Shown in pieces: positions 10,069-64,000 of a DNA stretch of 64,000 bases. The stretch's first letter is position 1. Every line of letters starts with the position of its first letter. This stretch comes from Verrucomicrobium sp. BvORR034 (GTDB lineage Bacteria; Verrucomicrobiota; Verrucomicrobiia; Verrucomicrobiales; Verrucomicrobiaceae), in the NCBI RefSeq assembly GCF_000739635.1, contig NZ_BATQ01000113.1, positions 1 to 64,000 of the forward strand, given 5' to 3'. The notes under the pieces were generated by a model. That model worked only from the letters and a program-made list of their open reading frames with translations. It ran no database searches and was not told the DNA's origin. A program made the translations under genes and the position numbers.

Positions 10069-10150
10069 GCCTCACTCTACCCCGTCCGGCGATGGCGTAT
10101 CAAGCCGTGGGTCACGTTTCCGTCACCCACGACTCCCTGGTCGGAAGGGC

Positions 10151-11113: not shown

Positions 11114-11140
11114 GTTGCTGACAAAAAGTTGAATTTAGAG

Positions 11141-12109: not shown

Positions 12110-12127
12110 CGTATCCGTGGCGTCACA

Positions 12128-12655
12128 TCAGCCCAGCAGGCCCCGACGCTTGAAATCGAACATGTTGATGTTGTGGGACTTCTCAATCATTTCGAAAAAG
12201 AACCGCAGCAGCGAGATCTCCCAGGTGTCGTCAACACCCTGGATGATGGCTCGCATGGGATTGCCAGAGGCGCGCTGTTCGGTCAGCAGCTTGTCGCACA
12301 CGGTGGCAAATGACTCATGAACGATCTCCTCGCTCACGGTGGTACGCTTGAAATTGAACCGGTAGCGCAGGATCGCAAGATCCTTGAGATGGTTCTTTAC
12401 CCACTGGCCAAAAGCCTCCGCTTCCGCCCCGAATCCCTCGAAACTCCAGTCGTCGGTCACCGTGGGGGTGACGATCATGGGGCGTTCCGCCTCGATCCGG
12501 CCATGGCGCACCCGCGTGACATTGGTGGAGTCCATGAGTTCGGTCACCAGTTGAAACTCGAACTGGGTGGTGCCAAACGTATCAATGCGACGATCAGGCT
12601 CGTGGAGAACCTTCGTATTTTCGATCGCGTACTGAAAATCGAACTCAGAATGCAT
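12128..12655 (-). CDS. conserved protein of unknown function
   Basis: A 175-residue soluble alpha/beta protein without signal peptide or membrane segment (MHSEFDFQYAIENTKVLHEP). It is acidic, with a cystatin-like or meiotically-up-regulated-like mixed pattern that I cannot assign to a family. It ends 18 bases before the start of the LysM/L,D-transpeptidase-like gene on the same strand, so it heads that transcript and may be functionally linked to it. Codon use and length support a real gene. Confidence 0.65.
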   Translation of the reverse strand: MHSEFDFQYAIENTKVLHEPDRRIDTFGTTQFEFQLVTELMDSTNVTRVRHGRIEAERPMIVTPTVTDDWSFEGFGAEAEAFGQWVKNHLKDLAILRYRFNFKRTTVSEEIVHESFATVCDKLLTEQRASGNPMRAIIQGVDDTWEISLLRFFFEMIEKSHNINMFDFKRRGLLG

Positions 12656-12782
12656 TTCTTGGTGGGAGCAGAGGGTAGTGCGGAATGGCTTCGTGGCTAG
12701 TGTTTTTTGAGGCTTGGGTCTGCGGGAGGGATTCCATCAGATCGCTCTTGAATGCAGAACTGACCCCCGTGAATCTGCGGCG

Positions 12783-13715: not shown

Positions 13716-13730
13716 CGAGCGATCCGCGGA

Positions 13731-14735
13731 TCAGACCAAAGTCTCTTCGAACTTGGCGTTGGAAGCCTCAAGGTGCTTTTTGTACTCCTTCATGCGAAGG
13801 GTCACGCGCTCTTCAAGAGTGCGCTCACCCAGCCCCTGATGCTCTGTACCCACCAGGGCCACAACCAGGTTCACCGTGGCTTTCACGTCTTCCAGCATCA
13901 CATATTCCGCAGAGACATTCTGGTCGTCGTCCAGATTGTGATAGTTGCCCAGAGGCACGCTCAGACCAGCACTGCGAATCCCGCAGGCCTGGAGCGCGGT
14001 GGCCTCGCAGGCCCCGGCATCCAGAAGGCAGCGCTGCACCCGGATCCCCTGCTCTGCTGCGGTGCGCATCACCGTCGCGATCAAGTCATGGTCAAACACC
14101 GAAAGGCGGTCGCCGACACGAACGATGGGGCCATCTCCCATTTCTGCACCGTTCACCGGGCGGCTGGTTTCAACGGAGAGAAACGCGGCTTCTTTGCCGA
14201 AGGGCCAATGCTTGCCCAGGTGCCAGGCACCCAGGAAGCCCACTTCCTCAGCGCGGGTGAAGGCGGCATGCACCGTTGCATCCAGACCCAGACGAGCCAG
14301 TTCCTTGATGGTGGCGATAATCACGGCACAGCCAACCAAGTCATCACAGGCCGCAGCGCCCACTTTGCCTTCCTCGATGGTGACGGGGAAACCCCACGGT
14401 GCAATGTCACCGTTCTCGCGACGGAGGGCGATGTTTTCAGGAAGATCGACAATCGATTTCGGCACGCCACCCAGAAACTCCCAGTCCCCGTTCTTGCCGG
14501 GGTTCTTCACCCATGCTGGGTGATCCATGTGTGCGCCCAACACCCAGACCGGGTTGGACTTGCGCTTACCCTTGCGATAAGTCGCCAGCAAATTGCCAAA
14601 GGCATCGGTGGACAGCTCCACATGGGGCACGTCCAGAAGGAGCTGCTCAATTTGCGCCCGCACATGATATTCATGAAATGGGGCGGTCGGTTGATTCAGG
14701 AGCTTCTTGAGGATAGAGGTCAGCGTGTCGGCCAT
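13731..14735 (-). CDS. M42/M20-like zinc aminopeptidase
   Basis: A 334-residue metallopeptidase of the M20/M25/M40 - M42 clan. Zinc ligands are visible in order: His69 and Asp71 (GAHMDH), Asp131 (AACDD), Glu163/Glu164 (TRAEEVG, the catalytic glutamate pair), Glu189 (LSVETS) and a late His in LGNYHNLDD. It lacks a signal peptide, so it acts in the cytoplasm on peptides. It ends 15 bases after the convergent AEC transporter and starts close to the divergent acyltransferase gene. M42 is favoured over M20 because of the single catalytic domain with an inserted lid. Confidence 0.85.
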   Translation of the reverse strand: MADTLTSILKKLLNQPTAPFHEYHVRAQIEQLLLDVPHVELSTDAFGNLLATYRKGKRKSNPVWVLGAHMDHPAWVKNPGKNGDWEFLGGVPKSIVDLPENIALRRENGDIAPWGFPVTIEEGKVGAAACDDLVGCAVIIATIKELARLGLDATVHAAFTRAEEVGFLGAWHLGKHWPFGKEAAFLSVETSRPVNGAEMGDGPIVRVGDRLSVFDHDLIATVMRTAAEQGIRVQRCLLDAGACEATALQACGIRSAGLSVPLGNYHNLDDDQNVSAEYVMLEDVKATVNLVVALVGTEHQGLGERTLEERVTLRMKEYKKHLEASNAKFEETLV

Positions 14736-14770
14736 TGCCTACTCTATACTCATTTCTCCCAGTACCAAAC

Positions 14771-15748
14771 GTGATCGTGAAGAAGATTCGCCACCGGATT
14801 GAGACATTTCTAGTAAACTTTGGAGTCTGGTGGCTCCCAAAACTCTCCAGGGAACAAGTTTTGCTCCTCAGCAAGGTGGTCGGACTGCTCGCCTTCGCCA
14901 TCGACTACCGCGGCCGAGGCACCGCCATTGCGAATCTCAAGGCGGCATTCTCCCGGGAGAACATCACCCCTGATCAGGCGCGCCGCATCGCGATCGGCAG
15001 TTTCCAGAACTTTGCCCGTACCTTTCTGGATCTTTTCTGGATCGCCGGCCATCCCAAGGAGGAATTGCCCCAGATCGCGAGGCTCTCCTGGCAGGACCCG
15101 AAAACGCCCGCCATGGCTCAATCCCGGGGTGCCCTCTGGGTGACGCCGCATTTTGGCAACTTTGAGGTGCTCAGCCTCATCGTCGGACTGCAGGGCTTCA
15201 CCCAGCTCACCATCGCTCAGGACTTCAAAAACGAAGCGCTGACCGACATCTTCGCCCGCCTCCGGCAGAAAACCGGCCACGAAATCATCCCACAACAAGG
15301 GGCAATGTTGCGGATCTTCAAGCAACTGAAACGGAACGGGCATGCTTCATTGCTCGCCGATCTCACCGTCAAACCCGGTCGCGCTGCCACGGTAATCGAG
15401 TGCTTTGGGTTGAAAACTTGTGTCCCCAACCTGCATACCAGCCTGGCATTCCGGCTGGGGCTGCCCCTCCTGCCCGCGACCGCCCTCCCCCTGTCAGACG
15501 GGACGTACCGCTGCCATTTCCTCGACCCCATGGAGGCTTCAGACTATCCCTCCATCGACACCATGACCCAGGCGGTGTGGGACCGGTTCGAACCTCAAAT
15601 CCGCCAGTACCCCGAGTGCTGGATGTGGATGTACAAGCACTGGCGCTACCTCCCCGGCCCGGAACGCGATTCCCGCTACCCTGCGTACGCCAACCCCAAT
15701 CGCCAGTTCCGGGAGATGCTCCCCGTCGCGCAGCTGACCCCACAGTGA
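14771..15748 (+). CDS. LpxL/HtrB-family lysophospholipid acyltransferase
   Basis: A protein of about 325 residues of the lipid A late acyltransferase family. The catalytic HxxxxD/E motif appears as HFGNFE (WVTPHFGNFEVLSLI). Other family parts are ANLKAAFS near the N-terminus, SLLADLTVKPG, a VPNLHTSLAFRLGLP segment and the C-terminal PECWMWMYKHWRY, close to the usual PEQWLWxHRRW. It likely adds an acyl chain to lipid A or a related envelope lipid at the inner membrane. The start is uncertain: GTG 14771 or GTG 14777 are reasonable, and a TTG at 14735 would overlap the divergent peptidase start. Confidence 0.85.
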   Translation: MIVKKIRHRIETFLVNFGVWWLPKLSREQVLLLSKVVGLLAFAIDYRGRGTAIANLKAAFSRENITPDQARRIAIGSFQNFARTFLDLFWIAGHPKEELPQIARLSWQDPKTPAMAQSRGALWVTPHFGNFEVLSLIVGLQGFTQLTIAQDFKNEALTDIFARLRQKTGHEIIPQQGAMLRIFKQLKRNGHASLLADLTVKPGRAATVIECFGLKTCVPNLHTSLAFRLGLPLLPATALPLSDGTYRCHFLDPMEASDYPSIDTMTQAVWDRFEPQIRQYPECWMWMYKHWRYLPGPERDSRYPAYANPNRQFREMLPVAQLTPQ

Positions 15749-15800
15749 TTCGCGGGGCGGGTGGGACGATGCCATGAACCACCGGGACAACTGAACGCAA

Positions 15801-15826
15801 GAAAGGCACGGTAAACCGTGCCTTTC
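15801..15826. terminator. bidirectional terminator hairpin between acyltransferase and acpP
   Basis: GAAAGGCACGG (15801-15811) pairs perfectly with CCGTGCCTTTC (15816-15826) around a TAAA loop. T-rich ends appear on both strands because of the AAAGG/CCTTT arms. It sits between two convergent genes. Confidence 0.75.
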
Positions 15827-15864
15827 CCAGAAATAGATGAAGGGTCAGTCCGGTAAGCGGAAGC

Positions 15865-16107
15865 TTACTCAGCGTTCTCTTCGACGTAACGGATCACATC
15901 ACCCACGGAGAGGAGCTTTTCAGCCTCTTCATCGGGCACGTCGATACCGAACTCTTCTTCGAAAGCCATGACCAACTCCACGGTGTCGAGTGAATCGGCG
16001 CCAAGGTCTTCAATGAACTTGGCTTCAGGAGTGACTTGTTCGGGGTTCACGCCGAGCTGTTCGACGATGATGTCCCGGACTTTGTCTGCAATGTTGGATT
16101 CGGCCAT
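15865..16107 (-). CDS. acpP: acyl carrier protein
   Basis: An 80-residue acidic ACP of standard length, carrier of growing acyl chains in type II fatty-acid synthesis. The phosphopantetheine attachment Ser39 lies in the canonical [12 protein letters not shown] motif. Helix 2/3 sequence ([20 protein letters not shown]) is typical. The gene is monocistronic here, with no fabF directly downstream, since the next feature is the convergent acyltransferase. Confidence 0.97.
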
Positions 16108-16231
16108 AAATGCGTGTTGTAGGTTGCTAAGTGGCGGGGAGCATTAGCGGGTGCGCCATTTTTCGCAACTGGGAAAATGCGATTTTTTACGTCCCCTTTT
16201 TGCCTGATTCCAGGCGGAAAGGGCTTGCCCG

Positions 16232-16993
16232 CTATGCGGTATTTTTAGGGGAAGATTCGGAGTTCTCCTTCTCTTCGCCGCTCGCTCCATGATCGTCCGC
16301 TACTTTTTCGATTAATTCTCCGGAAAAGCCCTCCAAAAGGCGTTTTAGGACACGATCCGCGCCGTGGAACTTGAGATCGTCCACTACAGCCTTGCGCTCG
16401 GCTCCAGAGCCCCCCTCACGGTAGTACACCGTCGCGAGCCCCTTGTTGTCCCACTTGCGCTTGTCCACCTTGAACACATCAGCAAACACCACCTTGGCAC
16501 CATTGGGCATCTGCATGTCGGATCGGTGGCCGATCAGCACCTTGTTGTGGTTGAGCAGAACGAGAATTCCCGCAATAGCCGCGCCGACGATCATCGCCGC
16601 CCCCCAGTAAAACTGCTGTTCGATCTCCTCCGGGCTGTATTTCTTCGGATCGCTGGGCCAGTCATGCGGTGCAGCATAGTCGTCCCACCGAGGCTGCTGG
16701 AGGTTCGGATTGACGATCCACCCCCTCTCCCGGGCATCTTTCAGCCAGGCGGCTACAGCCGCCTCCCCGGCGCTCTGCGCAGTGTCGTAGCTCTTGAGAA
16801 CCGTTTCTTCAAACCAGACCTTCTTGGCAGCTACCGCATTCTTTTTGGGGTAGCCCACCTTCCCATCGTAAAAAAAGAACAACCCCATTCCCAGGAACAT
16901 GGCCGCGAGCAGCCCCATTCTCCGGTAGTACCACGAGGTCACATGACAGGTAATGGTGTCGGGATCTTTTGGTGGATGGGCCGCATTGGTCAT
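16232..16993 (-). CDS. two-TM membrane protein of unknown function
   Basis: A 253-residue protein with membrane segments at about 27-42 (GLLAAMFLGMGLFFFY) and about 133-148 (GAAMIVGAAIAGILVLL). A roughly 90-residue periplasmic Trp/Pro-rich loop lies between, and the C-terminal cytoplasmic domain (about 150-235) has a PH-like beta pattern (HRSDMQMPNGAKVVFADVFK, WDNKGLATVYYREG). The tail is acidic. It lies just upstream of acpP on the same strand (125 bases). No characterised family recognised. Confidence 0.65.
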   Translation of the reverse strand: MTNAAHPPKDPDTITCHVTSWYYRRMGLLAAMFLGMGLFFFYDGKVGYPKKNAVAAKKVWFEETVLKSYDTAQSAGEAAVAAWLKDARERGWIVNPNLQQPRWDDYAAPHDWPSDPKKYSPEEIEQQFYWGAAMIVGAAIAGILVLLNHNKVLIGHRSDMQMPNGAKVVFADVFKVDKRKWDNKGLATVYYREGGSGAERKAVVDDLKFHGADRVLKRLLEGFSGELIEKVADDHGASGEEKENSESSPKNTA

Positions 16994-17333
16994 GTGAGGT
17001 CATTGAAGCGTCTTTCCAACCTGCGTGCAAGCCCATGGCAATGATCAATTCGCAACCACCAGATGGCCACTTTTTGACCGCTGCCACTTCTATGAGATCA
17101 AAAAATGCCCCATCACACCAGGGTCCACCTTAGCCTCGAACACGATTTATCCAGCACTCACGCAGGAGGCGCTGCTTTTTCCACAGGCTGGCACGATGTG
17201 TGCCATCTGGCGCAGCCCCCCACACCCATGTCCCTGCTCCTGGCCACCTTTTCGAAGGACGACTTTTCAGCACTGCGCTCTTCCCTTGGCCTCGGGAAGA
17301 TACGATGATGAGCGATAACCCAAAATTGCCGCC
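16994..17333. other. gene-free stretch
   Basis: About 340 bases between divergent genes (the two-TM protein and the YdjY protein). No convincing coding frame, RNA gene or strong hairpin was seen. It presumably carries both promoters, but no clear -35/-10 pair could be picked. Confidence 0.5.
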
Positions 17334-18128
17334 ATGATCGCTCTCCCTCGCCGCTTTACGCTGCCTACCTTGCTGGTCGCCGCAGCTGTCAGTTCTGCCC
17401 TGCTCCTGGCCCAGGATGGGGAACCCACGAAGCAACCCACGCCCAATGATGCGGGCAAAACCGTGGCCGCCAAGGAAATGGCTGAAGCCCAGTCCAGGGT
17501 GAAGAAAGTTGCGGACAACGAGTACGATCTGGGCGGCATCAAAATCAACAGCAAGACACGCCAAATCAGCGTGCCCTGCGTGCTCAACATGACAGAGGGT
17601 CTCCTGGAGTATGTCCTGGTGCACGAGCACGGGAAGACTCACGAGAGCCTTTTGCGCACGTCTGTCAGCCCGACGGAACTGAACGTGGCTCTGCTGCTGG
17701 CTCACTATGAGCCCAATATCAAAGAGGCTGCCCAGTTCCTCCCCGACCCGACCCCCATGACCCAAAAGCTCATGGCAGAACCCATGGCCAAGGCCGGGGC
17801 CAACCAGATCACCCTGAACGTGCAGTGGAAGGATAAGGACGGCAAAGAACAAACCGCGCCCGTCACCCGCTGGATTCACGAGAAGGATGCCAAAACCGCC
17901 CGGGAAAGCCAGCACTGGACCTACACAGGCTCCATGATCAGCCAGACCGGGTTTGCCGCCCAGTTCGATGGGTCCATGGTGGCGATCTACTTCGATCTCA
18001 TCTCGCTGGTGAACTTCCCCGTGAAGGAAAACGCCAACGACGATCTCTGGAAGGTTGAAACCGCCAAAGTACCCGCAGTGGACACCCCGGTGACCTTGGT
18101 GATCAGCCCCAAGAATCCTGGTGCCTGA
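17334..18128 (+). CDS. YdjY domain-containing exported protein
   Basis: A 264-residue protein with an N-terminal signal peptide (LLVAAAVSSALLLAQ). Its mature part follows the YdjY pattern: YDLGGIKINSKTRQISVPCVLNMTEGLLEYVLVHEHGKTHESLL, with the characteristic isolated GK-x-HESLL stretch, and an SPTELNVALLLAH motif next to it. It is predicted periplasmic. YdjY proteins have no firmly known function. It is followed 27 bases downstream by the prenyltransferase-repeat protein on the same strand, a pair that I take to be one operon. Confidence 0.8.
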   Translation: MIALPRRFTLPTLLVAAAVSSALLLAQDGEPTKQPTPNDAGKTVAAKEMAEAQSRVKKVADNEYDLGGIKINSKTRQISVPCVLNMTEGLLEYVLVHEHGKTHESLLRTSVSPTELNVALLLAHYEPNIKEAAQFLPDPTPMTQKLMAEPMAKAGANQITLNVQWKDKDGKEQTAPVTRWIHEKDAKTARESQHWTYTGSMISQTGFAAQFDGSMVAIYFDLISLVNFPVKENANDDLWKVETAKVPAVDTPVTLVISPKNPGA

Positions 18129-53913: not shown

Positions 53914-56004
53914 CTATCGCAGCCGTTCTATCGCCCGCAGAAGATCAGGGAAATTCACCGGCTTGACCAGGTGCTCCTGAAAACCCGCTTCACGGGATCG
54001 TTGATGATCTTCTTCCATCCCGTAGCCGCTCAAGGCGATGGCACGAAGCGGCAAACGGTTCCGAATGGACTTTATCAAATCCAGTCCGCTTCCATCGGGC
54101 AGGCCCAAATCACTGATCAGCAGATCCACAGGCTCCCCGTGATCCAACAAAGCGAGGGCGGTGGCCACGCTACGAGCCACGAGCACCTCGTGCCCACGCC
54201 GCTGCAAGAGCTGTCGCATCACCTCGCGGGTGTCCTCGTGATCCTCCACAAGGAGAATGCGCAACCCAGCGGCTTTCGCAGCTGGAACAGCCGGTGCCGA
54301 TGACGGCTGGCAGACAGGAAGCACCAGATCTGCTACGGAATGCCCCTGGAACACGGGCAGCGTAAGGGTGAAAGTCGCCCCTTTGCTCCGGCCTGCACTC
54401 GCGGCCGTGAGTGTGCCGTGGTGCAGCTCCACAATGGCCCTGCTGATGGCCAGCCCCAGCCCCAGCCCGCCAAACTGCCGTGTCACCGCTCGATTGCCCT
54501 GGTCGAAGGCATTGAAGATCCGGTCCATGTCTTCGGCAGCGATGCCAATGCCTGAGTCCGCCACCTCAATCACCATCGTATTTCCTCCCTCCCTCCCCGC
54601 CGGGCCAGGCTTCAGGCTCACCTGTACGGAACCGTCCTCAGGGGTGAACTTCACTGCATTGCGCAGCAGATTCCACAACACCTGCGTGAGACGCATCGCA
54701 TCCCCTCGCACCCGGGTCTGTGTGGCAGTGTCATGAGTGACAATGCGATCGGGCTCTGTGCGGGACTCCCGGCATATCTCTATGGCGTGGCTCAGCAGTT
54801 CACGCAGGTCCACTTCATCATCCCGCATCTCCATCTTGCCTTTGATGATCCGGGTCAGGTCCAGCAGATCGTCAATCAGCCTCGCCTCCAGATCAATGTT
54901 GCGCTTGACCATCTCAAGGTCACGGCGCAGCTCCTCCGGCACCTCGGGACGATCGCACCACTCTGCCACCACCGCCAGCACCGGGCTCAACGGCGTGCGC
55001 AGCTCATGGCTCAGCACGGCCAGGAACTGGTCCTTCGCCTCATTGGCCCTCTTGAGTTCCTCCCTGGAATTGCGCAGTTCCTCCTCCCGTTGCTGCAGTT
55101 CTTCAACAAAGGCCGCCCGGGCTTCTGCGGCCTCCTTGGCCACGCGCTCACGTGCCGCCTCCAGCTCCCGGGACCGGAATTCATGCAGAATGCGTGAGTT
55201 CTCCTCTTCGTAGAACTTCCGCCTCAGGAGGGCACGGATGCGACCTTTGAGGATCGCGTAGTCACCGGACTTCCCCACAAAGTCGTCCGCTCCGGCCTCG
55301 AGGGCACGGAAAAGATTGTCCCGGGACTCAGCCCCGGTCAGCACGATGGTGATGAGTGGCACCTCCAGCTGATGACGCAGCTCATTGATTCTGCGACATA
55401 CCTCGAACCCATCCATGTTCGGCATGAGGAGATCGATGATGACGCCGTCGTACTTGTTCTTCCTCACCAGTTCCAGGCTTTTCAGGGGATCCAGGGCAAT
55501 GTCCACCTTGTACCCCTCGCCCTCCAGCTCCCCTCTCAGGTGTTCCAGGAAGGTGACGCTGTCATCGATGGCGAGCAGGCGGGCCGTCCGGAAGCCGTTG
55601 TCACCGCCGGCAAAGATGCGACCTTCAGGCCTCGACTTTTGCAGGAGCGTCCGCACCCTCAGCAGCAGGTACTCTGGATTGCCTGACTTCAGGATGAAGT
55701 CGTCGGCCCCGCTGTCCAGACCTTGCAGTTCCTTGTCCTCCTGGGCAGTGAGGATCACGATCGGCAGACTGCGGCTGTCGACGTGCATTCTGATGCGACG
55801 GCAGACCTCATCACCCCGCATGCCGGGGAGATAGTAGTCCAGCAGCACCAGATCTGGCCGCTTGTCGCGCAGGGTGATAAAGGCCTCCTCCGCGGTGGAA
55901 ACCCAGGTCACCAGCCAGCCTTCAGCTTCCAGCAGGGAGATCAGTTTGAGCGCCTGGCTGGCGGAATCTTCCACCAGGACGATATGACTGCGATGCTCAG
56001 CCAT
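53914..56004 (-). CDS. hybrid sensor kinase REC-REC-HisKA-HATPase-REC, output of chemosensory operon
   Basis: A 696-residue hybrid. REC1 is about 7-125 (IVLVEDSASQALKLISLLEA) and REC2 about 140-265 (LLAIDDSVTFLEHLRGEL), both with the phospho-Asp (LVLLDYYLPGM; GVIIDLLMPNMDG). Then a coiled coil and HisKA (LAVLSHELRTPLSPVLAVVA). HATPase follows with WNLLRNAVKFTP, DSGIGIAAED and GGLGLGLAISRAIVELH. The C-terminal REC3 (ILLVEDHEDTREVMRQLL) ends at IERLR. It has no membrane segment or GGDEF. It is the last gene of the operon and overlaps cheB by eight bases; ATG 56004 starts MAEHRSHIVLVED. It may pass signals on to other regulators. Confidence 0.9.
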   Translation of the reverse strand: MAEHRSHIVLVEDSASQALKLISLLEAEGWLVTWVSTAEEAFITLRDKRPDLVLLDYYLPGMRGDEVCRRIRMHVDSRSLPIVILTAQEDKELQGLDSGADDFILKSGNPEYLLLRVRTLLQKSRPEGRIFAGGDNGFRTARLLAIDDSVTFLEHLRGELEGEGYKVDIALDPLKSLELVRKNKYDGVIIDLLMPNMDGFEVCRRINELRHQLEVPLITIVLTGAESRDNLFRALEAGADDFVGKSGDYAILKGRIRALLRRKFYEEENSRILHEFRSRELEAARERVAKEAAEARAAFVEELQQREEELRNSREELKRANEAKDQFLAVLSHELRTPLSPVLAVVAEWCDRPEVPEELRRDLEMVKRNIDLEARLIDDLLDLTRIIKGKMEMRDDEVDLRELLSHAIEICRESRTEPDRIVTHDTATQTRVRGDAMRLTQVLWNLLRNAVKFTPEDGSVQVSLKPGPAGREGGNTMVIEVADSGIGIAAEDMDRIFNAFDQGNRAVTRQFGGLGLGLAISRAIVELHHGTLTAASAGRSKGATFTLTLPVFQGHSVADLVLPVCQPSSAPAVPAAKAAGLRILLVEDHEDTREVMRQLLQRRGHEVLVARSVATALALLDHGEPVDLLISDLGLPDGSGLDLIKSIRNRLPLRAIALSGYGMEEDHQRSREAGFQEHLVKPVNFPDLLRAIERLR

Positions 56005-57130
56005 GGGCGACCTCCCCGCTCTGACAGACAACATTGAGCCGTGGTCCGATTTCTGAAACCGGCAAAATCTCACGGGCCGCCCCCAGGCGTACCGCAGTGC
56101 CCGGCATGCCATACACCACGGCGCTGGACTCATGCTCAGCAAAGGTAAACCCGCCGGAATCACACATTTCCTTTAACCCCTCCGCGCCATCCTCTCCCAT
56201 CCCAGTGAGCAGCACGCCAAGCGCCTTGGCACCGTGAACCTGGCTCATGGAGCGAAACAGGACCGTCCCTGAGGGCTTCTGCGCACAGACAGCGGGCGTG
56301 TCCAGCAGCCCGAGGCGCATGCCCGGCACACATACGGCATGCCGGTCTGCCGGAGCCACATAGACCCTGCCTTCTTCCAGCGGCATCTGCGACATTCCCT
56401 CGATCACCTCGCGGTCGGGAAGCACGTCATTCAGCCAGTTGACAAACCCGCGCACAAAACCCGGCGTAATATGTTGCACCACTACAATCGGTTGTTTGAC
56501 CTCAGGGGAAAGATCCCCGAGCACCCGGACCAGAGCACTCGGGCCTCCGGTGGAGGCCACCATGCCAATCACAGTCGGTCGCCAGCGTCCTGCTTTCGGC
56601 AGAGGCAACCTCGTTTCAGGGGAAGGCTCGGGCATCCCTGGCCAGGTGACACGATAGCGCTGCCGGATCACCCGCACCTGGCTCATGATAAAGAGCTTCG
56701 TGCACAACGCTGCCGCGAGGTCGGCATAGTCGTTGTGGCTCATGCCCACGGGCTTCTGCACCACGGAAAGCGCCCCGATCCGCAGCGCATTCATGGAGAT
56801 GTTGAGCTCATCATCCTCCACGTTGGAGGAAACAACCACAATGGGGGTCGGGTGCTCCGACATGATACGGCGGGTCACCTCCAGGCCGTTCATGCCTGGC
56901 AGGCGGATGTCCAGAGAGATCACATCGGGATGCACTCGATCCAGTACGGCCAGAGCCTCCTCCCCACTCCTGACTGATGCGACCACCTGCAGCCGCGGAT
57001 CCTGACTGATGATGTGCTCCAGGAACATGCTGATCACCGGAGAGTCCTCAACAATCATCACTGTGGTCTTTTTCGTCAATGCAGGGAAAGGTTGGGAAGT
57101 TTGGGGAGACAGACAGGCGGTCAGCGGCAT
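55997..57130 (-). CDS. cheB: chemotaxis protein-glutamate methylesterase CheB
   Basis: A 377-residue CheB: REC domain (VMIVEDSPVISMFLEHIIS, SLDIRLPGMNGLEV) and methylesterase domain with catalytic Ser in GMVASTGGPSALVR, His in QHITPGFVRGF and Asp in GMGEDGAEGLKEM. It removes methyl groups from chemoreceptors for adaptation. It lies between the CheA gene (2-base gap) and the hybrid kinase gene (overlap), matching the WspF position of Wsp operons. Confidence 0.96.
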   Translation of the reverse strand: MPLTACLSPQTSQPFPALTKKTTVMIVEDSPVISMFLEHIISQDPRLQVVASVRSGEEALAVLDRVHPDVISLDIRLPGMNGLEVTRRIMSEHPTPIVVVSSNVEDDELNISMNALRIGALSVVQKPVGMSHNDYADLAAALCTKLFIMSQVRVIRQRYRVTWPGMPEPSPETRLPLPKAGRWRPTVIGMVASTGGPSALVRVLGDLSPEVKQPIVVVQHITPGFVRGFVNWLNDVLPDREVIEGMSQMPLEEGRVYVAPADRHAVCVPGMRLGLLDTPAVCAQKPSGTVLFRSMSQVHGAKALGVLLTGMGEDGAEGLKEMCDSGGFTFAEHESSAVVYGMPGTAVRLGAAREILPVSEIGPRLNVVCQSGEVAHG

Positions 57131-57131
57131 G

Positions 57132-59270
57132 TCAGACCAGCTGGCGTACGGTATCGAGCAGCTCGCGGTGGTCGAAGCGCTCCTTCACGATGTAAGCATC
57201 GGCACCCAGGGCCAGACCGCGCTCCTGATCTTCACGGCTGCTCAGGGAGGTCACCAGCACCACGGGCAATTCGGCAAGGCGGGCGTGATTCTTCATCGCA
57301 GACAGGAGCTGGAAGCCATCCATCTCCGGCATCTGAACATCGGACACCACTGCATCCACCGGCTCCGTTCTCAGCAGATCATAGGCAGCTTTTCCATTCA
57401 CAGCCACCCGCACCGCATAGCCTGCGGCCTCCAGGATGGATTTCTGGAGGGTACGGGCGGTGAAGGAGTCATCCACCACCAGGACCACCGGCTTTTTCTT
57501 CACGGTCACGACGGGCTTCTCTTCACGCAAAGTGGCCCCGAGGAAGCGCTGCATCAGCCCGGGAAGATTGATGACCAGAGCCACCTCCCCCCCTTCGAGA
57601 AGGATGGCGCCTGAAAAGTGCGGTGACAACGAAGCGGGATGTGGCAGCGCCTTGATGAGGGCGCTTGTCTCACCCACGAACTCCTCGACATTGAGCGCCA
57701 GGGGGCGGTCCCCTTTCAGCACCGCGACGAGCAGATGGCCGTCCTCATGGCGCACCAGACTGGGCGGCAGCCCACAAGCCGGGCCGAGCGTCACAAGCGG
57801 GACCGGACGACCTCCGTGCATAATCACGGAGCGACCTTCCACGGTGTGGACCTTCGTCACCCGGTGCAGGGAATCGAGCCCACGCATGCCCAACGCGAAA
57901 GTGCGTCCGGCCGTTCGCACTAGAAGGAGGCGATGGGTGGAGACGCTCACCGGCACTTCCACGATCAACTGACAGCCCCCTCCCGGACTTTGCAGCATGC
58001 GGGCAGTCCCCTGCAACTGGGTGGCGCGGTCTTTCACCACCGACAAACCCACCCCGCGTCCCGAGACGCGAGTCACCTCTGCGGTGGTGGAGAAACGTGG
58101 CTCAAACAGAAAATCCAGCCACTGGGAGTCGTCCAAGTTTTCAGCCACCTCTGGAGTCACCAGGCGATTGCGCAGAGCTTGGGCACGCACCGAAGAAAGA
58201 TCCACCCCTTGCCCATCATCCAAGACGGACAGCCGAAGCACCTGTCCGATCACTTCAATCTCCAACCTGACCCTCCCTGTCTCGTCTTTGCCCGCCGCGC
58301 GACGCCGTGAGGGTGACTCGATCCCATGAGCCATGGCATTCCGCAAAGCATGCATCACAGGATCCTTCAGGGATTGAAGCACGGCACGGTCGGCCTGCAG
58401 TTCACCACCGTTGATCGTGAATTCCACCTTCTTCCCGGTCTCAGCAGCCAGGTCGCGCATCATCTTGGGAAATCCCTCAAACACGGTGTTGATGGGCACC
58501 ATCCCAATATGACGCACTTCTTCCAGCTGACGTTCGCCCAGCATACGCAGAGACCATCCCGCCTGCTGCTGCTGCAAGCGCACACGCTGGAGTTGTTTGC
58601 TCAGCGCCACCAGGCCTGCATGCAGTTCACCAGGGCCCGCCGTATTGCGGTCACTGGACTGCCTCAGCGTCTCGGTTTGCTCAAACAACTCCTCGAGTTC
58701 GCGTCCAAGCGCTTCCTGCCTGGAGGCTTCTGCCACCAGCTGTCCGCTGGATTGCAGCAACCTGTCCAGATGACCTGCATGGATCCGCAAGCTGTCGTGC
58801 CCGCCCCCACCAGTCGGCAGCGTCTTTTTGGCAACAGGCAGCCGGTCTCCGGACTCAGGCTCGGAATGGAATGCCAGTTCATGCTCCTGGTTCACCATCA
58901 ACTCTGCCGGTGTCATGATCGCATCGGTGCCGGAGCCTGTTGCCCCGCTCCGTTCAGCAATCATGAGGTCATCGACTTCGTCAATGATCCGGCCCATCCG
59001 CTCTTTTGCGGCGGCATCCGCCGGCACGTGCCCTTTAGCCACTTCGGAAAGCAGGCTTTCCAGATCATGTGCCAGATGCTCCACGTCCAGCAGATCACAG
59101 ACCCGGGCCCCACCCTTCATGCTATGGGCCATGCGAAACGCCTCGTCGAACAAGGGCCCCTCCGCCAGGGGCCAAGCCTCCATCAGCATGCGAATCGCCG
59201 TAATCTGCTCACGATATTCCAAACGGAACGCCGCGAGCACACGCTGGTGGATGTCAGAAGAGGACGACAC
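57132..59270 (-). CDS. cheA: CheA-type histidine kinase with C-terminal receiver (WspE-like)
   Basis: A 712-residue CheA hybrid. Hpt domain with His49 (RMAHSMKGGARVC), dimerisation/HATPase with MHALRNAMAHGIE, DDGQGVDLSS and GRGVGLSVVKD, CheW-like domain (about 445-570), and a C-terminal REC (VVDDSFTARTLQKSILEAAG, SDVQMPEMDGFQLL). The CheA-REC fusion is the WspE-like or FrzE-like form used by non-flagellar systems. It is cytoplasmic, working with the CheW proteins of this operon. ATG 59270 starts MSSSSDIHQRVLAAF. Confidence 0.95.
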   Translation of the reverse strand: MSSSSDIHQRVLAAFRLEYREQITAIRMLMEAWPLAEGPLFDEAFRMAHSMKGGARVCDLLDVEHLAHDLESLLSEVAKGHVPADAAAKERMGRIIDEVDDLMIAERSGATGSGTDAIMTPAELMVNQEHELAFHSEPESGDRLPVAKKTLPTGGGGHDSLRIHAGHLDRLLQSSGQLVAEASRQEALGRELEELFEQTETLRQSSDRNTAGPGELHAGLVALSKQLQRVRLQQQQAGWSLRMLGERQLEEVRHIGMVPINTVFEGFPKMMRDLAAETGKKVEFTINGGELQADRAVLQSLKDPVMHALRNAMAHGIESPSRRRAAGKDETGRVRLEIEVIGQVLRLSVLDDGQGVDLSSVRAQALRNRLVTPEVAENLDDSQWLDFLFEPRFSTTAEVTRVSGRGVGLSVVKDRATQLQGTARMLQSPGGGCQLIVEVPVSVSTHRLLLVRTAGRTFALGMRGLDSLHRVTKVHTVEGRSVIMHGGRPVPLVTLGPACGLPPSLVRHEDGHLLVAVLKGDRPLALNVEEFVGETSALIKALPHPASLSPHFSGAILLEGGEVALVINLPGLMQRFLGATLREEKPVVTVKKKPVVLVVDDSFTARTLQKSILEAAGYAVRVAVNGKAAYDLLRTEPVDAVVSDVQMPEMDGFQLLSAMKNHARLAELPVVLVTSLSSREDQERGLALGADAYIVKERFDHRELLDTVRQLV

Positions 59271-59318
59271 GAAGGGGTTTCAGATTTCGGAACTGGATGA
59301 GGTCGACGGCGGAAACAT

Positions 59319-60947
59319 CTACAGCTGGTACTTGCCGACAGCCATGCGGAGCTGGATGCTGAGTTCGTTGAGATTACCCAGCGCCTTCTCCAGCTGGGCG
59401 GTCCCTATTGCAGTCTGCTCCGCCGCTTGGCGGATGTCGCGCATCCCCTGGGTCACCTGATCAAAGCCAATCTGCTGCTGACTGGTGGCACCGATGATCT
59501 GCTGGAAGGCGTGCACACTTTCCACCGTCGTCTCCGTCATCTGGTGAATGGTCTGCTCCGTCACCTGGGCCTGCTGCCTTCCGGAATCAGAGCGCTTCAC
59601 CGCTTCCTCCGTGAGCATCACCGTGCTGTTGATACCCCGCTGGATCTCTCCCAGGATGCCCCCCACCTGCACCGTGCTCTCCTTGGCCCGCTGGGCGAGA
59701 TTGCGCATCTCGCCTGCCACCACGGCAAATCGTGTGCCGTGCTCACCCGCGCTGGCCGCCTCAATGCTGGCGTTGAGAGCCAGGAGGTTGGACTGATCCG
59801 AGATTTCATTCACGGTGCTGATGATGTCGCCAATGGCCTGCATCCGCTCACTCAGCCCCACAATCTTCACCGCCACATCCTCCACCTGCTGACGGATGCC
59901 CTCCATGAGCCTGGTGGTTGCCTGCACGGCCCCTACGCCAGACTGGCTGGCAGCGGACGTGGCTTCTGCACTGGCGGCCACCTGCCTGGCCTTGTCAGCG
60001 ATCTCGGCGCCGGACTGCGTGATTTCCTGCATCGTGGCTGAGACCTCCTGCACCGTCGCCGCCTGCTCCTTGGTGCTGGAGGCCTGCTGCTGGGTGGAGG
60101 CAAGGATCTCCGCGGCAGCGGAGTTGATATTTCCCGTAACCCCAAGAATCTGGCCGCTCAAATCTTTGAGATTGTCCACCATGTTGTCAAAGGCGTCCCC
60201 CAGCTGCCCCAGCTCATTGCGACTCGCAATCGCCGCTTTCTCCGTGCGCAGATTGCCACGGGAGACATTGTCCGCCAAGATGACCAGACGCTGAAGCGGA
60301 CCTGTGATGCTCGTGGCCACCAGCCAGCTTATCAGGAAGCCCAGAGTGCCCACAAACACCGTGATGAGCACTTCCTTCGTCACCAGCTCCTGTGACTGCT
60401 CCTGCAGCAGTTGCGTGTATCCCTTGTTGATGACGATGCCGAGATCCTGAATCTCCGTCTCCCGCTGCAACAGACTTGTCAGGAGCGGCGCGAAGTCGGG
60501 AGACGTTTTTTCCATGGCGACCAGCCGGTCCGTGTCATCGATAGATACTGTAATGAGCTGGGCCTGCTTCAGCATGTTGTCGCGCACAGTGCCTTCAGGC
60601 GCAGCCGGCACCCTCACCGTCTCTGGTCGATTGAGGCGCTCAATCACCTCTCCACCATTGAGCAGCCCTTCCTGGGTACCCACCCAGACCTTCCGCACAT
60701 AGTCCAGTTTTTCCCGGGTAGCGCGCTTCTCCATGAGAAGCAAGGCCGTGGAGAAATGCTGCTGCTGCAAAGTCCGCTGACGCCCTACCAGCTCAAGGAC
60801 GAGAAATTTGTCCCGCTGGCTGTCCAGCGTACTGACCGTGAAGTAGAGGATCGTGGCCAGGGCCCCGAGGAAAAATAGCGGGATGAGAGTGAGTTTGGTG
60901 CCGACCTTGAGATCACGCCAGACGTTGGGAGAGGAATTCATGAACAA
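59319..60947 (-). CDS. methyl-accepting chemotaxis protein with PilJ-like sensor
   Basis: A 542-residue MCP: TM1 about 18-38, periplasmic sensor about 40-200, TM2 about 203-226, HAMP, then the coiled-coil signalling domain with the hairpin tip NEISDQSNLLALNASIEAAS, GTRFAVVAGEMRNLAQRA. The sensor start LELVGRQRTLQQQHFS resembles the type IV pili transducer N-terminal (PilJ-type) motif AGRQRMLSQ. ATG 60947 or 60941 are both possible. Encoded between cheW and cheA, it is the only receptor in the operon. Ligand unknown; surface or pilus-linked sensing is suggested (inference). Confidence 0.92.
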   Translation of the reverse strand: MFMNSSPNVWRDLKVGTKLTLIPLFFLGALATILYFTVSTLDSQRDKFLVLELVGRQRTLQQQHFSTALLLMEKRATREKLDYVRKVWVGTQEGLLNGGEVIERLNRPETVRVPAAPEGTVRDNMLKQAQLITVSIDDTDRLVAMEKTSPDFAPLLTSLLQRETEIQDLGIVINKGYTQLLQEQSQELVTKEVLITVFVGTLGFLISWLVATSITGPLQRLVILADNVSRGNLRTEKAAIASRNELGQLGDAFDNMVDNLKDLSGQILGVTGNINSAAAEILASTQQQASSTKEQAATVQEVSATMQEITQSGAEIADKARQVAASAEATSAASQSGVGAVQATTRLMEGIRQQVEDVAVKIVGLSERMQAIGDIISTVNEISDQSNLLALNASIEAASAGEHGTRFAVVAGEMRNLAQRAKESTVQVGGILGEIQRGINSTVMLTEEAVKRSDSGRQQAQVTEQTIHQMTETTVESVHAFQQIIGATSQQQIGFDQVTQGMRDIRQAAEQTAIGTAQLEKALGNLNELSIQLRMAVGKYQL

Positions 60948-60974
60948 TGGGATGGATGGGAAACTGGAGACGTT

Positions 60975-61550
60975 CTAGGCGGGAACAAGACTGTAAAAGG
61001 GTTCAAGAATAACATTCGCGTCCAGGAGGACCCCCAGCCTTCCGGCCGCCTCAAATACGTTGTTTTCTTTGATTTCTTCAGGTGCCAGACGGACAAACCC
61101 CAGCACCTCGTGACAGCCCAGTGCCAGACGAAGTGAGGGATGGCGGAGCACCGCTCCACGCACAAATTCGGAGACATCACCCCCAGTCGTCTTGAGATAC
61201 GGATAAGGGCTGCAGAGACTAACCAGTTCACTCCGCACATTCACAACGCCCAGGAGGGCGTCATGAGCGTCCGGCACGGCAGCCCAATGCTGGAAGCTGA
61301 TGATCTGGGAGACCTGGGACGCGTCCAGGCCAATCACCGATTCCCCCACGCGCAAGAGGAGCACTTGCTGGGTGTGCTCATGGTTTGGCCGCCCTGCTTC
61401 CTTTTTTTCCGCCAAAGCGGCAGCTCGGCGCAGCAATACGGCTTCCCGCTCCTCCGTCCCTGGCTCAAAAGCCCGTTGCAGGGTAGCCTCCGCATCTTTC
61501 ATGCGTAGCCTTACCAGCTCCCAATCGATTCGTTCTGTCTCAGGCTTCAT
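60975..61550 (-). CDS. cheW: CheW-type adaptor, second
   Basis: A 191-residue CheW-domain protein with a longer N-terminal helical extension (about 1-60), then VLLLRVGESVIGLDASQVSQIISFQ, DAHDALLGVVNVRSELVSLCSPY and the LAPEEIKENNVF closing region. CheW couples receptors to CheA. Its start overlaps the CheR stop by 11 bases. It is next to the MCP gene, so it may be the main adaptor of that receptor. Two adaptors of differing length is the usual number in Wsp-type operons. Confidence 0.9.
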   Translation of the reverse strand: MKPETERIDWELVRLRMKDAEATLQRAFEPGTEEREAVLLRRAAALAEKKEAGRPNHEHTQQVLLLRVGESVIGLDASQVSQIISFQHWAAVPDAHDALLGVVNVRSELVSLCSPYPYLKTTGGDVSEFVRGAVLRHPSLRLALGCHEVLGFVRLAPEEIKENNVFEAAGRLGVLLDANVILEPFYSLVPA

Positions 61551-62994
61551 GTGTCAAGGTGCCTCCATGGTAAGGTTGCAAGAGGGCGCGCAATTCAGCG
61601 GCGGTCAATCCATCTCCCCAAGGGAGCACCGTCATGCCATCCTGGCGGGAGATCAACCGGCGTGCATTCTGGAAACTCCGGCCTGCGGGCTCCCCCAAAC
61701 TGAGCTGCACCAGCCCCAGATAGTAGTGCGCGACAGCCAAATCCCGGCGCAGGTAGAGGCTACGCTTCAATGCATGGCGGGCCTTCACCCATTCTCCCTG
61801 CTGAAACAATACCAGCCCTAGTTGGAAGTGCGCCCCTTCATGAAGGGGTTGTGCGGCAACAAGGCCCTCCGCCATCTTCCGGGCAGAAAGCAGGTCACCA
61901 CTGTCTGCGAGCTTGGATATTTCCTCAATCTCCGGCACCCCTGCTGCCACAGCCTTTGACAAAAGGGCCGGCTCCGGAGTGGCCCTCCTGGTCTCAACCC
62001 ACTTCGCAGCCTCGGCTTTCTTCGGAGGCAATTGCATCTGCGCATTTGCTGGAAGAGCAGGTTTTGCCGGAGTGTGGCACACGGCAGCTGATGCAGCGGT
62101 GGAAGAAACCTTGCGCCCGTCCCCATCGGCGGCCCTCTGATACAGCACCGCCCCTGGCGCATTGACGGTCTGGAAGGCGCGGAAGATCTCCGTATGAGGC
62201 TCTGCATGCCCGACAGCCAGCCATCCGCCCGGCACGAGACTGCGGTAGAACTGATCCGCAAGCCGCCGATTGGTCGCGGTGTCAAAGTAGATAATGACGT
62301 TGCGGCAGATGACGAGGTCAAGGCCGCTCAGCTCGTGTTCGATCGACGGAAACTTGTCTTGGACCAGGTTGTGATGACGAAAGGTCACCGCCTCCCGATA
62401 AAGGTCGTTGATGCGCCAGCGGGCTCCAATCCGGTGGAAGGTGCGCTGGAGCAAGGCCGGCTCCATCCCTCTGAGCGCCCAGTTGTCATAGACACCTGTA
62501 CGGGCGAGCGCGAGGAATCGACGATTGATGTCCGTCGCCACGATCTTGAATGACCAGTCCTGTGCCGCATCCCCCAGCAAATCATGCAGCAGGATCGCCA
62601 GCGAGTAGGGCTCCGCTCCAACGGAACAGCCCGCACTCCAGATGCGAATGGACCTGAGGGCAGAACGCCTCTGGATGAGATCCGGCAGCACGTGATCTCG
62701 CAAGGCATGGAACATCTCCAGATGTCGGAAGAAGAATGTTTCCCCAATGGTCAGCTCTTCCACCAACCGGTCCAGAGCTGGGTCTGGCCTGCTAGTCAAG
62801 ACATCGAGAACCTCCCGTGCTGGCAGGCCTTCCAGCTGCTGGCAACGTCCTACGGCCGTGGCGAGGTCGCGATCCTTGTCGTCATAGTAGGACAGGCCGG
62901 TAGTGGCGATGATCCACTCCTTCAGTTTTTGAAACTCCGGATCGCTGAGCAGGCTGGGCACCCCGGAATCCGCCATGGGTTCCACTGTGCTCAT
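61540..62994 (-). CDS. cheR: CheR methyltransferase with C-terminal TPR (WspC-like)
   Basis: A 484-residue CheR with TPR. The CheR part (about 15-290) includes TTGLSYYDDKDRDLATAVGR, SAGCSVGAEPYSLAILLHDL with SAM-binding glycines, NLVQDKFPS and DLVICRNVIIYFD. The C-terminal TPR-like part (about 365-445) has GAHFQLGLVLFQQGEWVKAR and SLYLRRDLAVAHYYLGLVQL. It methylates receptor glutamates. The CheR-TPR fusion is the WspC form. It overlaps the first CheW gene by four bases (ATGA). Confidence 0.94.
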   Translation of the reverse strand: MSTVEPMADSGVPSLLSDPEFQKLKEWIIATTGLSYYDDKDRDLATAVGRCQQLEGLPAREVLDVLTSRPDPALDRLVEELTIGETFFFRHLEMFHALRDHVLPDLIQRRSALRSIRIWSAGCSVGAEPYSLAILLHDLLGDAAQDWSFKIVATDINRRFLALARTGVYDNWALRGMEPALLQRTFHRIGARWRINDLYREAVTFRHHNLVQDKFPSIEHELSGLDLVICRNVIIYFDTATNRRLADQFYRSLVPGGWLAVGHAEPHTEIFRAFQTVNAPGAVLYQRAADGDGRKVSSTAASAAVCHTPAKPALPANAQMQLPPKKAEAAKWVETRRATPEPALLSKAVAAGVPEIEEISKLADSGDLLSARKMAEGLVAAQPLHEGAHFQLGLVLFQQGEWVKARHALKRSLYLRRDLAVAHYYLGLVQLSLGEPAGRSFQNARRLISRQDGMTVLPWGDGLTAAELRALLQPYHGGTLTHEA

Positions 62995-63506
62995 GCCTCC
63001 TGTTCCGCCAATTCAAAAGCCTCCTGACGAAGCTTCTCACGAGTCGTCAACTGCCGCAGCCGGAGATTTTCACCTTCCAGCAGCACCTTGGAGGGGCTGA
63101 GCAGCACGATCGACATCTCGGGAGCCGGACGGGCAACGACCCGGTCTGCGCAGTTGTTGAGCACATGATCCGCCGGAAGCCGCACGGTCTGAGCGGCCTC
63201 GTAGCGCAAGAGCTCCACGCCCTCGTCTGCCAGCCAGGCCACGTGCAGATCTCCCAACCGGGCCACGACGATGCGTGACTGAAGCTGTTCCTCTGGATCC
63301 CACCCCGCGTTCTGCAAGGCCAGTTGCAGCACACTTTCCAGCCGAAGGACGGGCACCATCTCACCACGCAAGTTGAGGAACCCACGCAGCACATGCGGGG
63401 TCTCCGGAGGATGCACAAGGCGCACGCAGGGCAGCACCTCCCGCACATGATGAACATCGATCCCCAGCCGGACGCCACAGAGGGAAAATGTCAAAGCGGA
63501 AGGCAT
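62991..63506 (-). CDS. cheW: CheW-type adaptor, first (head of operon)
   Basis: A 171-residue CheW: TFSLCGVRLGIDVHHVREVLP, PPETPHVLRGFLNLRGEMVPVLRLES and IVVARLGDLHVAWLADEGVEL match the CheW beta-barrel pattern. It lies at the start of the chemosensory operon. ATG 63506 starts MPSALTFSLCG. The stop overlaps the next start (ATGA). No promoter was recognised in the 46-base gap to the preceding membrane protein gene, so that gene may be co-transcribed. Confidence 0.9.
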   Translation of the reverse strand: MPSALTFSLCGVRLGIDVHHVREVLPCVRLVHPPETPHVLRGFLNLRGEMVPVLRLESVLQLALQNAGWDPEEQLQSRIVVARLGDLHVAWLADEGVELLRYEAAQTVRLPADHVLNNCADRVVARPAPEMSIVLLSPSKVLLEGENLRLRQLTTREKLRQEAFELAEQEA

Positions 63507-63552: not shown

Positions 63553-63972
63553 TCAACGGATGTCAGGCTCCGGTTGGCTGTCCCTTTGTTTGCTCAAGCC
63601 ATCAATTCTCCGAACGAGGACCAGATAGATCAGCCCAACGACCACCACCTGGCCCCCCAGTGCCAAGGGAAACATCCCCATCTTCATCGCGCCCCACCCG
63701 GCCATGGCTACGGCAGAGGAAACGCCCATCACCACCATCATCGTGAGGCACCCCCACCGGGCTTGATCCTTGGCATCATACGGGGTGGCAAACGGACGCC
63801 ATTCGTTCAGCAAGCCCGGAACAAGGGACCACACGGGCAGCATCACCACGTTGGGCAACAGAAGCAGCAACCACTTGCTGATACCATGGGTGGCGAGCAC
63901 GACCGTCAAGAGCAGGGCAATCAACGGCATGGCCAGCAGGACCAGGACCGCTTTCCTCGCCCCATGAAACAA
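63553..63972 (-). CDS. small membrane protein of unknown function
   Basis: A 139-residue protein with about three to four hydrophobic segments (AVLVLLAMPLIALLLTVVLA; LLLLLPNVVMLPVWSLV; GQVVVVGLIYLVLVRR). ATG 63972 begins MFHGARKAVLVLLAM. It lies 46 bases upstream of the chemosensory operon on the same strand and could be its first gene. No family recognised. Confidence 0.6.
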   Translation of the reverse strand: MFHGARKAVLVLLAMPLIALLLTVVLATHGISKWLLLLLPNVVMLPVWSLVPGLLNEWRPFATPYDAKDQARWGCLTMMVVMGVSSAVAMAGWGAMKMGMFPLALGGQVVVVGLIYLVLVRRIDGLSKQRDSQPEPDIR

Positions 63973-64000
63973 GGGTTGCCAGCGTCCTTCCGGTGAAGAC

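Follow-up and report, generated by a model that had tools for sequence, protein, structure and literature searches.

Here we describe a chemosensory operon in Verrucomicrobium sp. BvORR034, located at 53914-63506 on the minus strand of a 64,000-nucleotide stretch (positions 1 to 64,000 of contig NZ_BATQ01000113.1; hereafter the window). Its gene order is CheW-CheR-CheW-MCP (methyl-accepting chemotaxis protein)-CheA-CheB, followed by a gene for a hybrid histidine kinase (HHK). We propose that this is an alternative cellular function (ACF)-type operon whose CheA probably phosphorylates the front receiver (REC) domains of HHK, most likely the first of them (REC1), and thereby switches the HHK kinase, with no involvement of cyclic-di-GMP or of a flagellar motor. 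An earlier note on this DNA had named these seven genes on one strand, and their Pfam domains, all on the minus strand, bear it out.

Results

A conserved seven-gene block that includes a hybrid kinase

We looked for the operon in a sample of 68 genomes of the same bacterial family, 47 of them with a completeness of ≥90% and a contamination of ≤5%. Orthologues of the window CheA, at 47 to 93% identity, were present in 6 further genomes, and the order CheW-CheR-CheW-MCP-CheA-CheB-HHK was kept in all 7 family loci with a window-type CheA (in G047, the first CheW was detected by profile only, not by BLAST). Because the gene order is the same in 7/7 family loci, the operon is not a product of chance; a chance neighbor or an assembly artifact was ruled out on these grounds. 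Within the family, the survey of gene order that the earlier note had put forward for the Verrucomicrobia returned the identical seven-gene order in all 7 loci, and the operon is real, intact, and kept across at least three genera.

Next, we considered the distribution of the last gene. With 17 candidates scored per genome, full-length HHK (>780 bits) occurred in exactly the same 7 of the 68 genomes that have window-type CheA, and the next best match scored 380 bits, less than half as much, and covered residues 300 to 695 only. The HisKA-HATPase-REC half of HHK is part of a large paralogous family in this bacterial family.

The HHK gene (53914-56004, minus strand) encodes 696 amino acids if translation starts at the ATG at 56004, with an open frame that extends to 56163. 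By Pfam, the protein has three REC domains, HisKA, and HATPase, laid out as REC1 (residues 6 to 122), REC2 (139 to 262), a coil, HisKA/HATPase (321 to 552), and REC3 (581 to 696). The phospho-sites D56, D191, H333, and D632 are invariant in 7/7 orthologues, as are the Thr/Ser and Lys of the receivers. The kinase is of the HisKA plus HATPase_c kind, not the HWE type, and no PAS domain matched at an E value of 0.001 (Pfam). Compared with the four orthologues from outside the genus, identities were 63 to 72% for REC1, 61 to 65% for REC2, 51 to 59% for the kinase, and 49 to 53% for REC3. REC1 (55639-55989, minus strand) is the best-conserved folded domain and our proposed CheA target, and the coil is as conserved as REC1 (60 to 75% to the same four orthologues).

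Since HHK is the seventh gene of a conserved block, co-occurs with the CheA in 7/68 genomes, and has intact phospho-sites in 7/7 orthologues, its sequence record makes it very probably the output of the window CheA. The ACF core is complete at the locus by Pfam (MCP, CheW, and CheA, also CheR and CheB), and a multidomain regulator (REC-REC-HisKA-HATPase-REC) adjoining CheB, as the probable output, fits the ACF output criterion given in PMC3447774. We also weighed whether HHK could be a cotranscribed neighbor that serves another sensor, with a receiver elsewhere as the CheA target. The genome has three chemosensory clusters (the window operon and clusters on contigs C16 and C152, either of which could hold such a receiver) and many receivers besides, but this explanation sits poorly with the occurrence of full-length HHK and window-type CheA in the same genomes. 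It also sits poorly with the four operon genomes outside the genus, which have one CheA match each at E ≤ 1e-60 and keep HHK with both front receivers intact, and we regard it as improbable.

The front receivers could be followed beyond the family. A receiver tree (85 rows, 115 columns, supported by the Shimodaira-Hasegawa-like approximate likelihood ratio test [SH-aLRT] only, with 36 of 81 inner branches open) placed HHK REC1 with REC1 of loci L165 and L183 (SH-aLRT, 97) and HHK REC2 with REC2 of the same two loci (SH-aLRT, 89). These are distant loci of the same phylum that have REC-REC kinases in the slot after CheB. REC3 is missing from L165 and falls in another group in L183. Because REC1 and REC2 group with their counterparts in both loci while REC3 does not, the REC1-REC2 tandem seems to be the constant input, with REC3 as the variable part. 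None of the HHK receivers grouped with the WspR receiver. What is new here is an intact tandem-receiver input common to three lineages.

Proposed signaling route and its alternatives

In the mechanism that we propose, a membrane array (a PilJ-like MCP and two CheW proteins, with CheR and CheB for adaptation) would control CheA, which would phosphorylate the tandem N-terminal receivers of HHK, most likely REC1. Phosphorylated REC1-REC2 would then alter the coiled coil that leads from REC2 into the dimerization and histidine phosphotransfer (DHp) helix, this change would switch autophosphorylation of H333 up or down, and H333 would hand its phosphate to REC3 and/or to a separate regulator encoded elsewhere. 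The C-terminal REC of CheA would probably be a phosphate sink, as in CheA3 of Rhodospirillum centenum. We infer the CheA-to-REC1/REC2 phosphotransfer, the sign of its effect, and the onward target. In the AlphaFold2 (AF2) model of HHK, residues 249 to 336 (54997-55260, minus strand) form one continuous helix from alpha5 of REC2 into the DHp helix with H333 (mean predicted local distance difference test [pLDDT] score, 58 to 80 by blocks of ten), and this path from REC2 through the coil to DHp is a plausible rod for the signal.

With neither a GGDEF match nor an EAL match in the genome, an output through cyclic-di-GMP is very unlikely. The earlier note had seen no GGDEF domain in view, and this now extends to the whole 8.58-Mb assembly, with 0 PF00990 matches (the control was positive in 8/14 genomes); that search also disposes of a GGDEF regulator to the right of the window on the 93,790-base contig, which the note had wished to see checked. 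EAL had 0 matches in the genome and was found in 0/7 genomes with the operon. GGDEF was absent in 6 of these 7 genomes, and the seventh (G012) encodes two GGDEF proteins, neither of them on the contig of the operon. FliM (PF02154) was found in 0/7 operon genomes (control, 4/14), other flagellar genes not having been searched.

The earlier note had further envisaged a phosphorelay from CheA through HHK without cyclic-di-GMP, of which HHK as the very probable output and a path without cyclic-di-GMP are supported, and an onward relay is a possibility. We found four histidine phosphotransfer (Hpt) domains in the genome at the Pfam level, three of them in the CheAs and one on contig C190 in an 876-amino-acid open frame that also holds a receiver, compared with 10 genome matches to HHK at E ≤ 1e-60 (HHK itself included). 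A relay via REC3 would need an Hpt domain, and the candidates are few; it is therefore no less likely that H333 passes its phosphate straight to an unlinked regulator or that REC3 serves as a sink. More boldly, and purely hypothetically, REC3 might return phosphate to the Hpt domain of a CheA.

HHK might also be the linked output and still work mainly by chemistry in cis, with H333 feeding REC3 (perhaps REC1/2) as a sink or relay and CheA either making physical contact or directing most of its activity to CheB and its own REC. REC3 is intact in 7/7 orthologues, CheA does have a REC of its own, and in R. centenum the REC1 aspartate of the kinase CheS3 controls the kinase without taking its phosphate (PMC3868531), all of which would suit such an arrangement. 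However, it does not account for a REC-REC front end that has stayed with this CheA lineage and has changed less than the kinase and REC3, and we consider it unlikely.

Several points weigh against transfer from CheA to the HHK front receivers. The full HHK model has a predicted template modeling score (pTM) of 0.34, and therefore nothing on domain contacts is to be read from it. The choice of a CheA target among the receivers draws on conservation and on the short receiver tree with its many open branches, which groups receivers by sequence and does not show which of them CheA touches. The HisKA-HATPase-REC half comes from a large paralogous family, so another driver is conceivable. No downstream regulator is linked to the operon, no stand-alone Hpt protein was found in the genome (Pfam), and neither window-type CheA nor HHK was found in G066, a 76% complete genome of the same genus. 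In R. centenum, as far as the extract goes, the only CheA3 to show transfer was a mutant without the REC aspartate, and REC2 of CheS3 has no aspartate (PMC3868531). With these points counted, CheA-to-receiver signaling into the HHK kinase is still the reading that we think probable. A more far-reaching version of it seems to us rather unlikely: a PilJ-like, anion-sensing (possibly nitrate-like) array would control gene expression, and CheA would write two phospho-marks (REC1 and REC2) that form a two-step gate, inherited as an "address" module for kinases with different tails, again without a flagellar motor or cyclic-di-GMP.

Comparison with Wsp operons

We also evaluated whether the window holds a Wsp operon with WspR replaced by a hybrid kinase, comparable to Burkholderia WspH, as the earlier note had it when it called the operon Wsp-like and its output replaced. 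The Wsp reference was locus L233 of one Pseudomonas genome (G541), reached through locus L041, for which the Wsp names were assigned from gene order, domains, and the REC-GGDEF gene. The two operons share the same set of gene kinds, including a CheR-TPR and a CheA-REC, and among three Pseudomonas CheAs, the window CheA scored best with WspE (260 bits versus 219 and 191). The order in L233 is MCP-CheW-CheR-CheW-CheA-CheB-REC-GGDEF, with the MCP first, whereas the window MCP is the fourth gene, so that the window order departs from the wspA-wspF synteny (MCP-CheW-CheR-CheW-CheA-CheB) used as a criterion in PMC8552884. Identities to the Wsp proteins were 27% for the MCP, 28% for the first CheW, and 27% for CheR (all <30%), 33% for CheB, and 37.5% for the second CheW, the last over 56 residues only. 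The window CheA and WspE were 29.8% identical, or 30.6% in the reverse direction, borderline to the 30% mark; judged by this one Pseudomonas reference, three of the core proteins fall short of the minimum core identity of 30% used in PMC8552884. A WspR (REC-GGDEF) or WspH output is likewise not found, in a genome without GGDEF and with HHK receivers that group apart from the WspR receiver.

The CheA phylogeny gave an equivalent result. In an unrooted tree of 67 rows, from which four long rows (L209, L183, L215, and L191) had been left out beforehand, WspE fell in an 11-row clade (support, 100/99) that also includes the C16 type and six loci with a kinase gene in the slot, and the window family lay across a branch of about 1.03 (support, 100/100) from that clade. 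The window half of the tree (33 rows) also includes the two other Pseudomonas CheAs, which we take to be one ChpA-like and one flagellar-type CheA; neither belongs to the set of 25 rows (100/98) that contains the window family. Taken together, synteny, identity, and the CheA tree ruled out Wsp membership of the window operon, and we hold a Wsp origin to be highly improbable.

The genome does have a real Wsp relative, on contig C16 (L099; G000 C16, 10001-30000; cluster at 6523-14425, minus strand), with the order MCP-CheW-CheR-CheW-CheA-CheB-REC, that is, wspA-F order. All six Wsp core proteins have counterparts there in the same order at 34 to 62% identity (for the receptor, over the signaling part). 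WspE is 52% identical to the C16 CheA over 587 positions versus 30% to the window CheA. The C16 receptor has a 4HB_MCP_1 match of 27.0 bits, at its cutoff of 27, and the window MCP, whose sensor looks PilJ-like, has none (Pfam). The WspR counterpart is a lone 142-amino-acid receiver (51% identity over 122 residues) with no effector or GGDEF domain, and the same identity test repeated on G067 agreed. Because of its core order, these identities, its CheA clade, and this lone WspR-like receiver, the Wsp system without the cyclase of WspR is C16 and not the window. The earlier label thus does not fit the window, with its CheA outside the WspE clade, its MCP in fourth place, its PilJ-like sensor, and identities of 27 to 38%, and the idea of a replaced output gave way, as the Wsp-type core lies on C16.

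The C16 layout is also present in G065, G067, and G070, the last from another family of the order. Loci L178, L193, and L203, of the same class and other orders, have Wsp-type cores and a WspR-like receiver fused to HK-REC-REC (HK, histidine kinase); this receiver is 64 to 69% identical to that of WspR over about 150 amino acids, and these are WspH-like outputs outside Burkholderia. By the criteria of PMC8552884, and against one Pseudomonas reference, C16, L178, L193, and L203 would qualify as Wsp. According to that paper, Wsp was found only in beta- and gammaproteobacteria in a survey of 794 clusters; since the survey used a bounded hit list, Wsp outside these two groups is an extension of it and not a contradiction. 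The assignment is thereby corrected: the Wsp relative is another locus, beyond the beta- and gammaproteobacteria of the PMC8552884 survey.

The slot after CheB across the phylum

To place HHK among other outputs, we surveyed 387 genomes of the same phylum and obtained 57 CheA matches at E ≤ 1e-50 in 52 genomes. Two CheA candidates were scored per genome, so that the third cluster of a genome was missed; the C16 cluster is missing from the 57 loci for this reason, and their number is a lower bound. A same-strand CheB within the next three genes was lacking in 13 loci, a same-strand gene after CheB in 7, and 37 loci had one. These 37 slot genes comprised 17 REC-SpoIIE, 14 kinase-bearing, 2 REC-GGDEF, 1 REC, and 1 CheW gene and 2 with no domain recognized; the CheW slot locus has a REC-GGDEF gene two genes further on. 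The gene directly after CheB was thus a receiver protein in 34/57 loci. The kinase-bearing slots were REC-REC-HK-REC (6), REC-HK-REC-REC (4), and others (4). The four long rows left out of the 67-row tree were retained in this tally. Kinase architectures were checked by Pfam in 10/14 cases and the SpoIIE label in 6/17, with the other 11 assigned by a local model built from those six; the local domain models were built from window and locus sequences.

On a CheA tree of 68 rows, the six output labels ("other or none" included) needed at least 15 changes, compared with a mean of 37 after shuffling. The REC-REC-HK-REC label needed 2 changes, since L183, on a long branch, did not join the family, and a single origin of this slot is possible. 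With the four long rows left out of the 67-row tree, the evidence for a wider spread of REC-REC kinases comes from L165 in the CheA tree and, in the receiver tree, from L183 as well as L165. The receiver tree also contains a 25-row clade (SH-aLRT, 99) that unites the WspR receiver with the first receiver from each of 24 slot proteins, regardless of effector (SpoIIE, kinase, or none). Three receivers of SpoIIE proteins lie outside this clade. At the level of sequence, this pattern suggests a rule in which a conserved receiver is recognized by CheA and the effector is swappable, the conserved part in the window lineage being REC1-REC2. The slot after CheB with its swapped effectors (SpoIIE phosphatase, kinase, GGDEF, or nothing) is new, and it suggests a testable rule for the phylum, in which this gene would often keep a conserved receiver.

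REC-SpoIIE, with a PP2C-type phosphatase, was the commonest gene after CheB (for example, L187:6533-7747 and L166:9140-10369), and its prevalence suggests partner-switching outputs. The C152 cluster of the same genome (L100; G000 C152, 75001-95000; cluster at 7653-17759), which runs over two strands and has CheA, MCP, CheB, CheR, and CheWs, likewise carries a REC-SpoIIE protein (484 amino acids) and a REC-kinase (467 amino acids) beside CheA and CheB.

The receptor and the other genes of the operon

The MCP gene (59319-60947, minus strand) encodes 542 amino acids from a TTG start, which is uncertain, with HAMP and MCPsignal domains (Pfam) and two transmembrane helices (hydrophobic peaks at about 15 to 42 and 188 to 215). 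The periplasmic sensor domain between them (60378-60842, minus strand) has the motif VGRQR(T/M)LQ, and the AF2 model of residues 36 to 190 is a four-helix fold with a pLDDT of 90.5. Its best PDB match was the McpN ligand-binding domain (6gcv; Foldseek E value, 3.1e-3; Z, 15.8; root mean square deviation, 2.2; 126 aligned residues), with other four-helix sensors near it at Z scores up to 14.9. In a Pfam search of three proteins, PilJ matched the receptors of L116 (23.9 bits; cutoff, 26.6) and L113 (16.2 bits) weakly, below the cutoff, and did not match that of the window. When the sensor alignment was run as a profile against the PDB, no useful relative emerged; the matches were to a designed TIM barrel, through a short match that recurred, and to a chain of the Mce family (E value, 1.6). 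As matches to four-helix bundles are common, the model-based assignment of the sensor as PilJ-like is tentative. McpN is a nitrate-binding receptor with the N-box [IVL]-[ND]-x-A-G-x-Q-R-M-L-[ST]-Q (PMC6381276). Arg58 of the window MCP lines up with its nitrate-contacting R61 when aligned by motif only, by eye. The strict N-box was found in 0/7 orthologue sensors, and GxQR with the key Arg was found in 7/7. With the strict N-box failing in all seven, only the Arg is suggestive of nitrate, and an anion ligand is a lead only, taken from the sensor sequences.

CheA (712 amino acids; 57132-59270, minus strand) has the Pfam architecture Hpt-HATPase-CheW-REC, with the REC at the C terminus, and contains the motifs MAHSMKGG, DDGQGVD, and SGRGVGLS plus the receiver motifs; no separate dimerization or P2 domain passed an E value of 0.001 in Pfam. 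The remaining genes are also on the minus strand. The first CheW (62991-63506; 171 amino acids; PF01584, E = 3.9e-16) has the same place in 7/7 family loci, and the second (60975-61550) has 191 amino acids (PF01584, E = 1.7e-12). CheR (61540-62994; 484 amino acids; PF01739, E = 1.4e-48) is a methyltransferase with a probable C-terminal TPR part, to which four TPR models match, each under its curated cutoff (the best, TPR_2, at 26.8 bits versus 27). CheB (55997-57130; 377 amino acids, start codon uncertain) has an N-terminal REC (PF00072, E = 8.5e-21; PF01339, E = 5.6e-48). With the starts as listed, three of the six junctions overlap (CheW/CheR by 4 nucleotides, CheR/CheW by 11, and CheB/HHK by 8) and at the remaining three the genes lie 27, 48, and 1 nucleotides apart, so that the earlier description of the genes as overlapping holds for half of the joins. 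The gene just upstream (63553-64000, continuing to L081:5181) encodes a 542-amino-acid protein without a Pfam match at an E value of 0.001; it adjoins the operon in G065 and G067, whereas it was not seen there in the four loci from other genera.

Discussion

Our literature search returned no paper on the window locus among the matches listed, with subscription literature covered in part only, and the matches on Wsp in Verrucomicrobia were confined to papers on waste ponds or shipwrecks. Parts of the arrangement have precedents. A hybrid kinase instead of WspR is already in print as Burkholderia WspH, which stands in for WspR and whose wsp mutants had no significant change in cyclic-di-GMP (PMC8552884). 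Like that system, the window has a chemosensory core with a hybrid kinase in the place of the diguanylate cyclase WspR. In contrast to the window, wspH lies 5′ of its operon and encodes a REC related to that of WspR (PMC8552884), and the CheA of the window does not belong to the WspE clade. The Pseudomonas Wsp operon itself (L233) has the same gene kinds and a CheA-REC and differs in its REC-GGDEF output, its MCP in first place, and its separate CheA clade.

The operon also resembles the cheR-TPR clusters with REC-histidine kinase regulators in combining a CheR-TPR with a kinase-bearing regulator (PMC3447774). Among the response regulators in such clusters, about 40% carry HisKA plus HATPase modules, and phosphorylation of the REC was proposed to modulate the autokinase (PMC3447774). 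A tandem front receiver together with REC3, and the window locus itself, do not appear in the extract of that survey.

Another of the closest known systems is Che3 of R. centenum, an ACF cluster that has a CheA-REC, two CheWs, an MCP, CheR, and CheB as well as a second kinase that begins with two receivers, for which a GGDEF output is, as in the window, not described in the extract of PMC3868531. There, a CheA3 mutant without its REC aspartate phosphorylates REC1 of CheS3, genetics indicates that REC1 phosphorylation lowers CheS3 output, and CheS3 phosphorylates CheY3 (PMC3868531). Our proposed mechanism is plausible and known in kind from CheA3/CheS3. CheS3 is a REC-REC-PAS-HWE kinase with a degenerate REC2, a linked CheY3 as its target, and, in the extract, no C-terminal REC described (PMC3868531). 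Unlike CheS3, HHK is of the HisKA type, has no PAS domain and no linked CheY, keeps both front receivers intact, and carries the extra REC3. On our reading, the operon would be a second natural case of kinase-to-kinase signaling from a chemosensory array, R. centenum Che3 being the sole biochemically worked case that we found, and since both HHK front receivers keep the aspartate, unlike those of CheS3, its gate could be dissected by point mutants.

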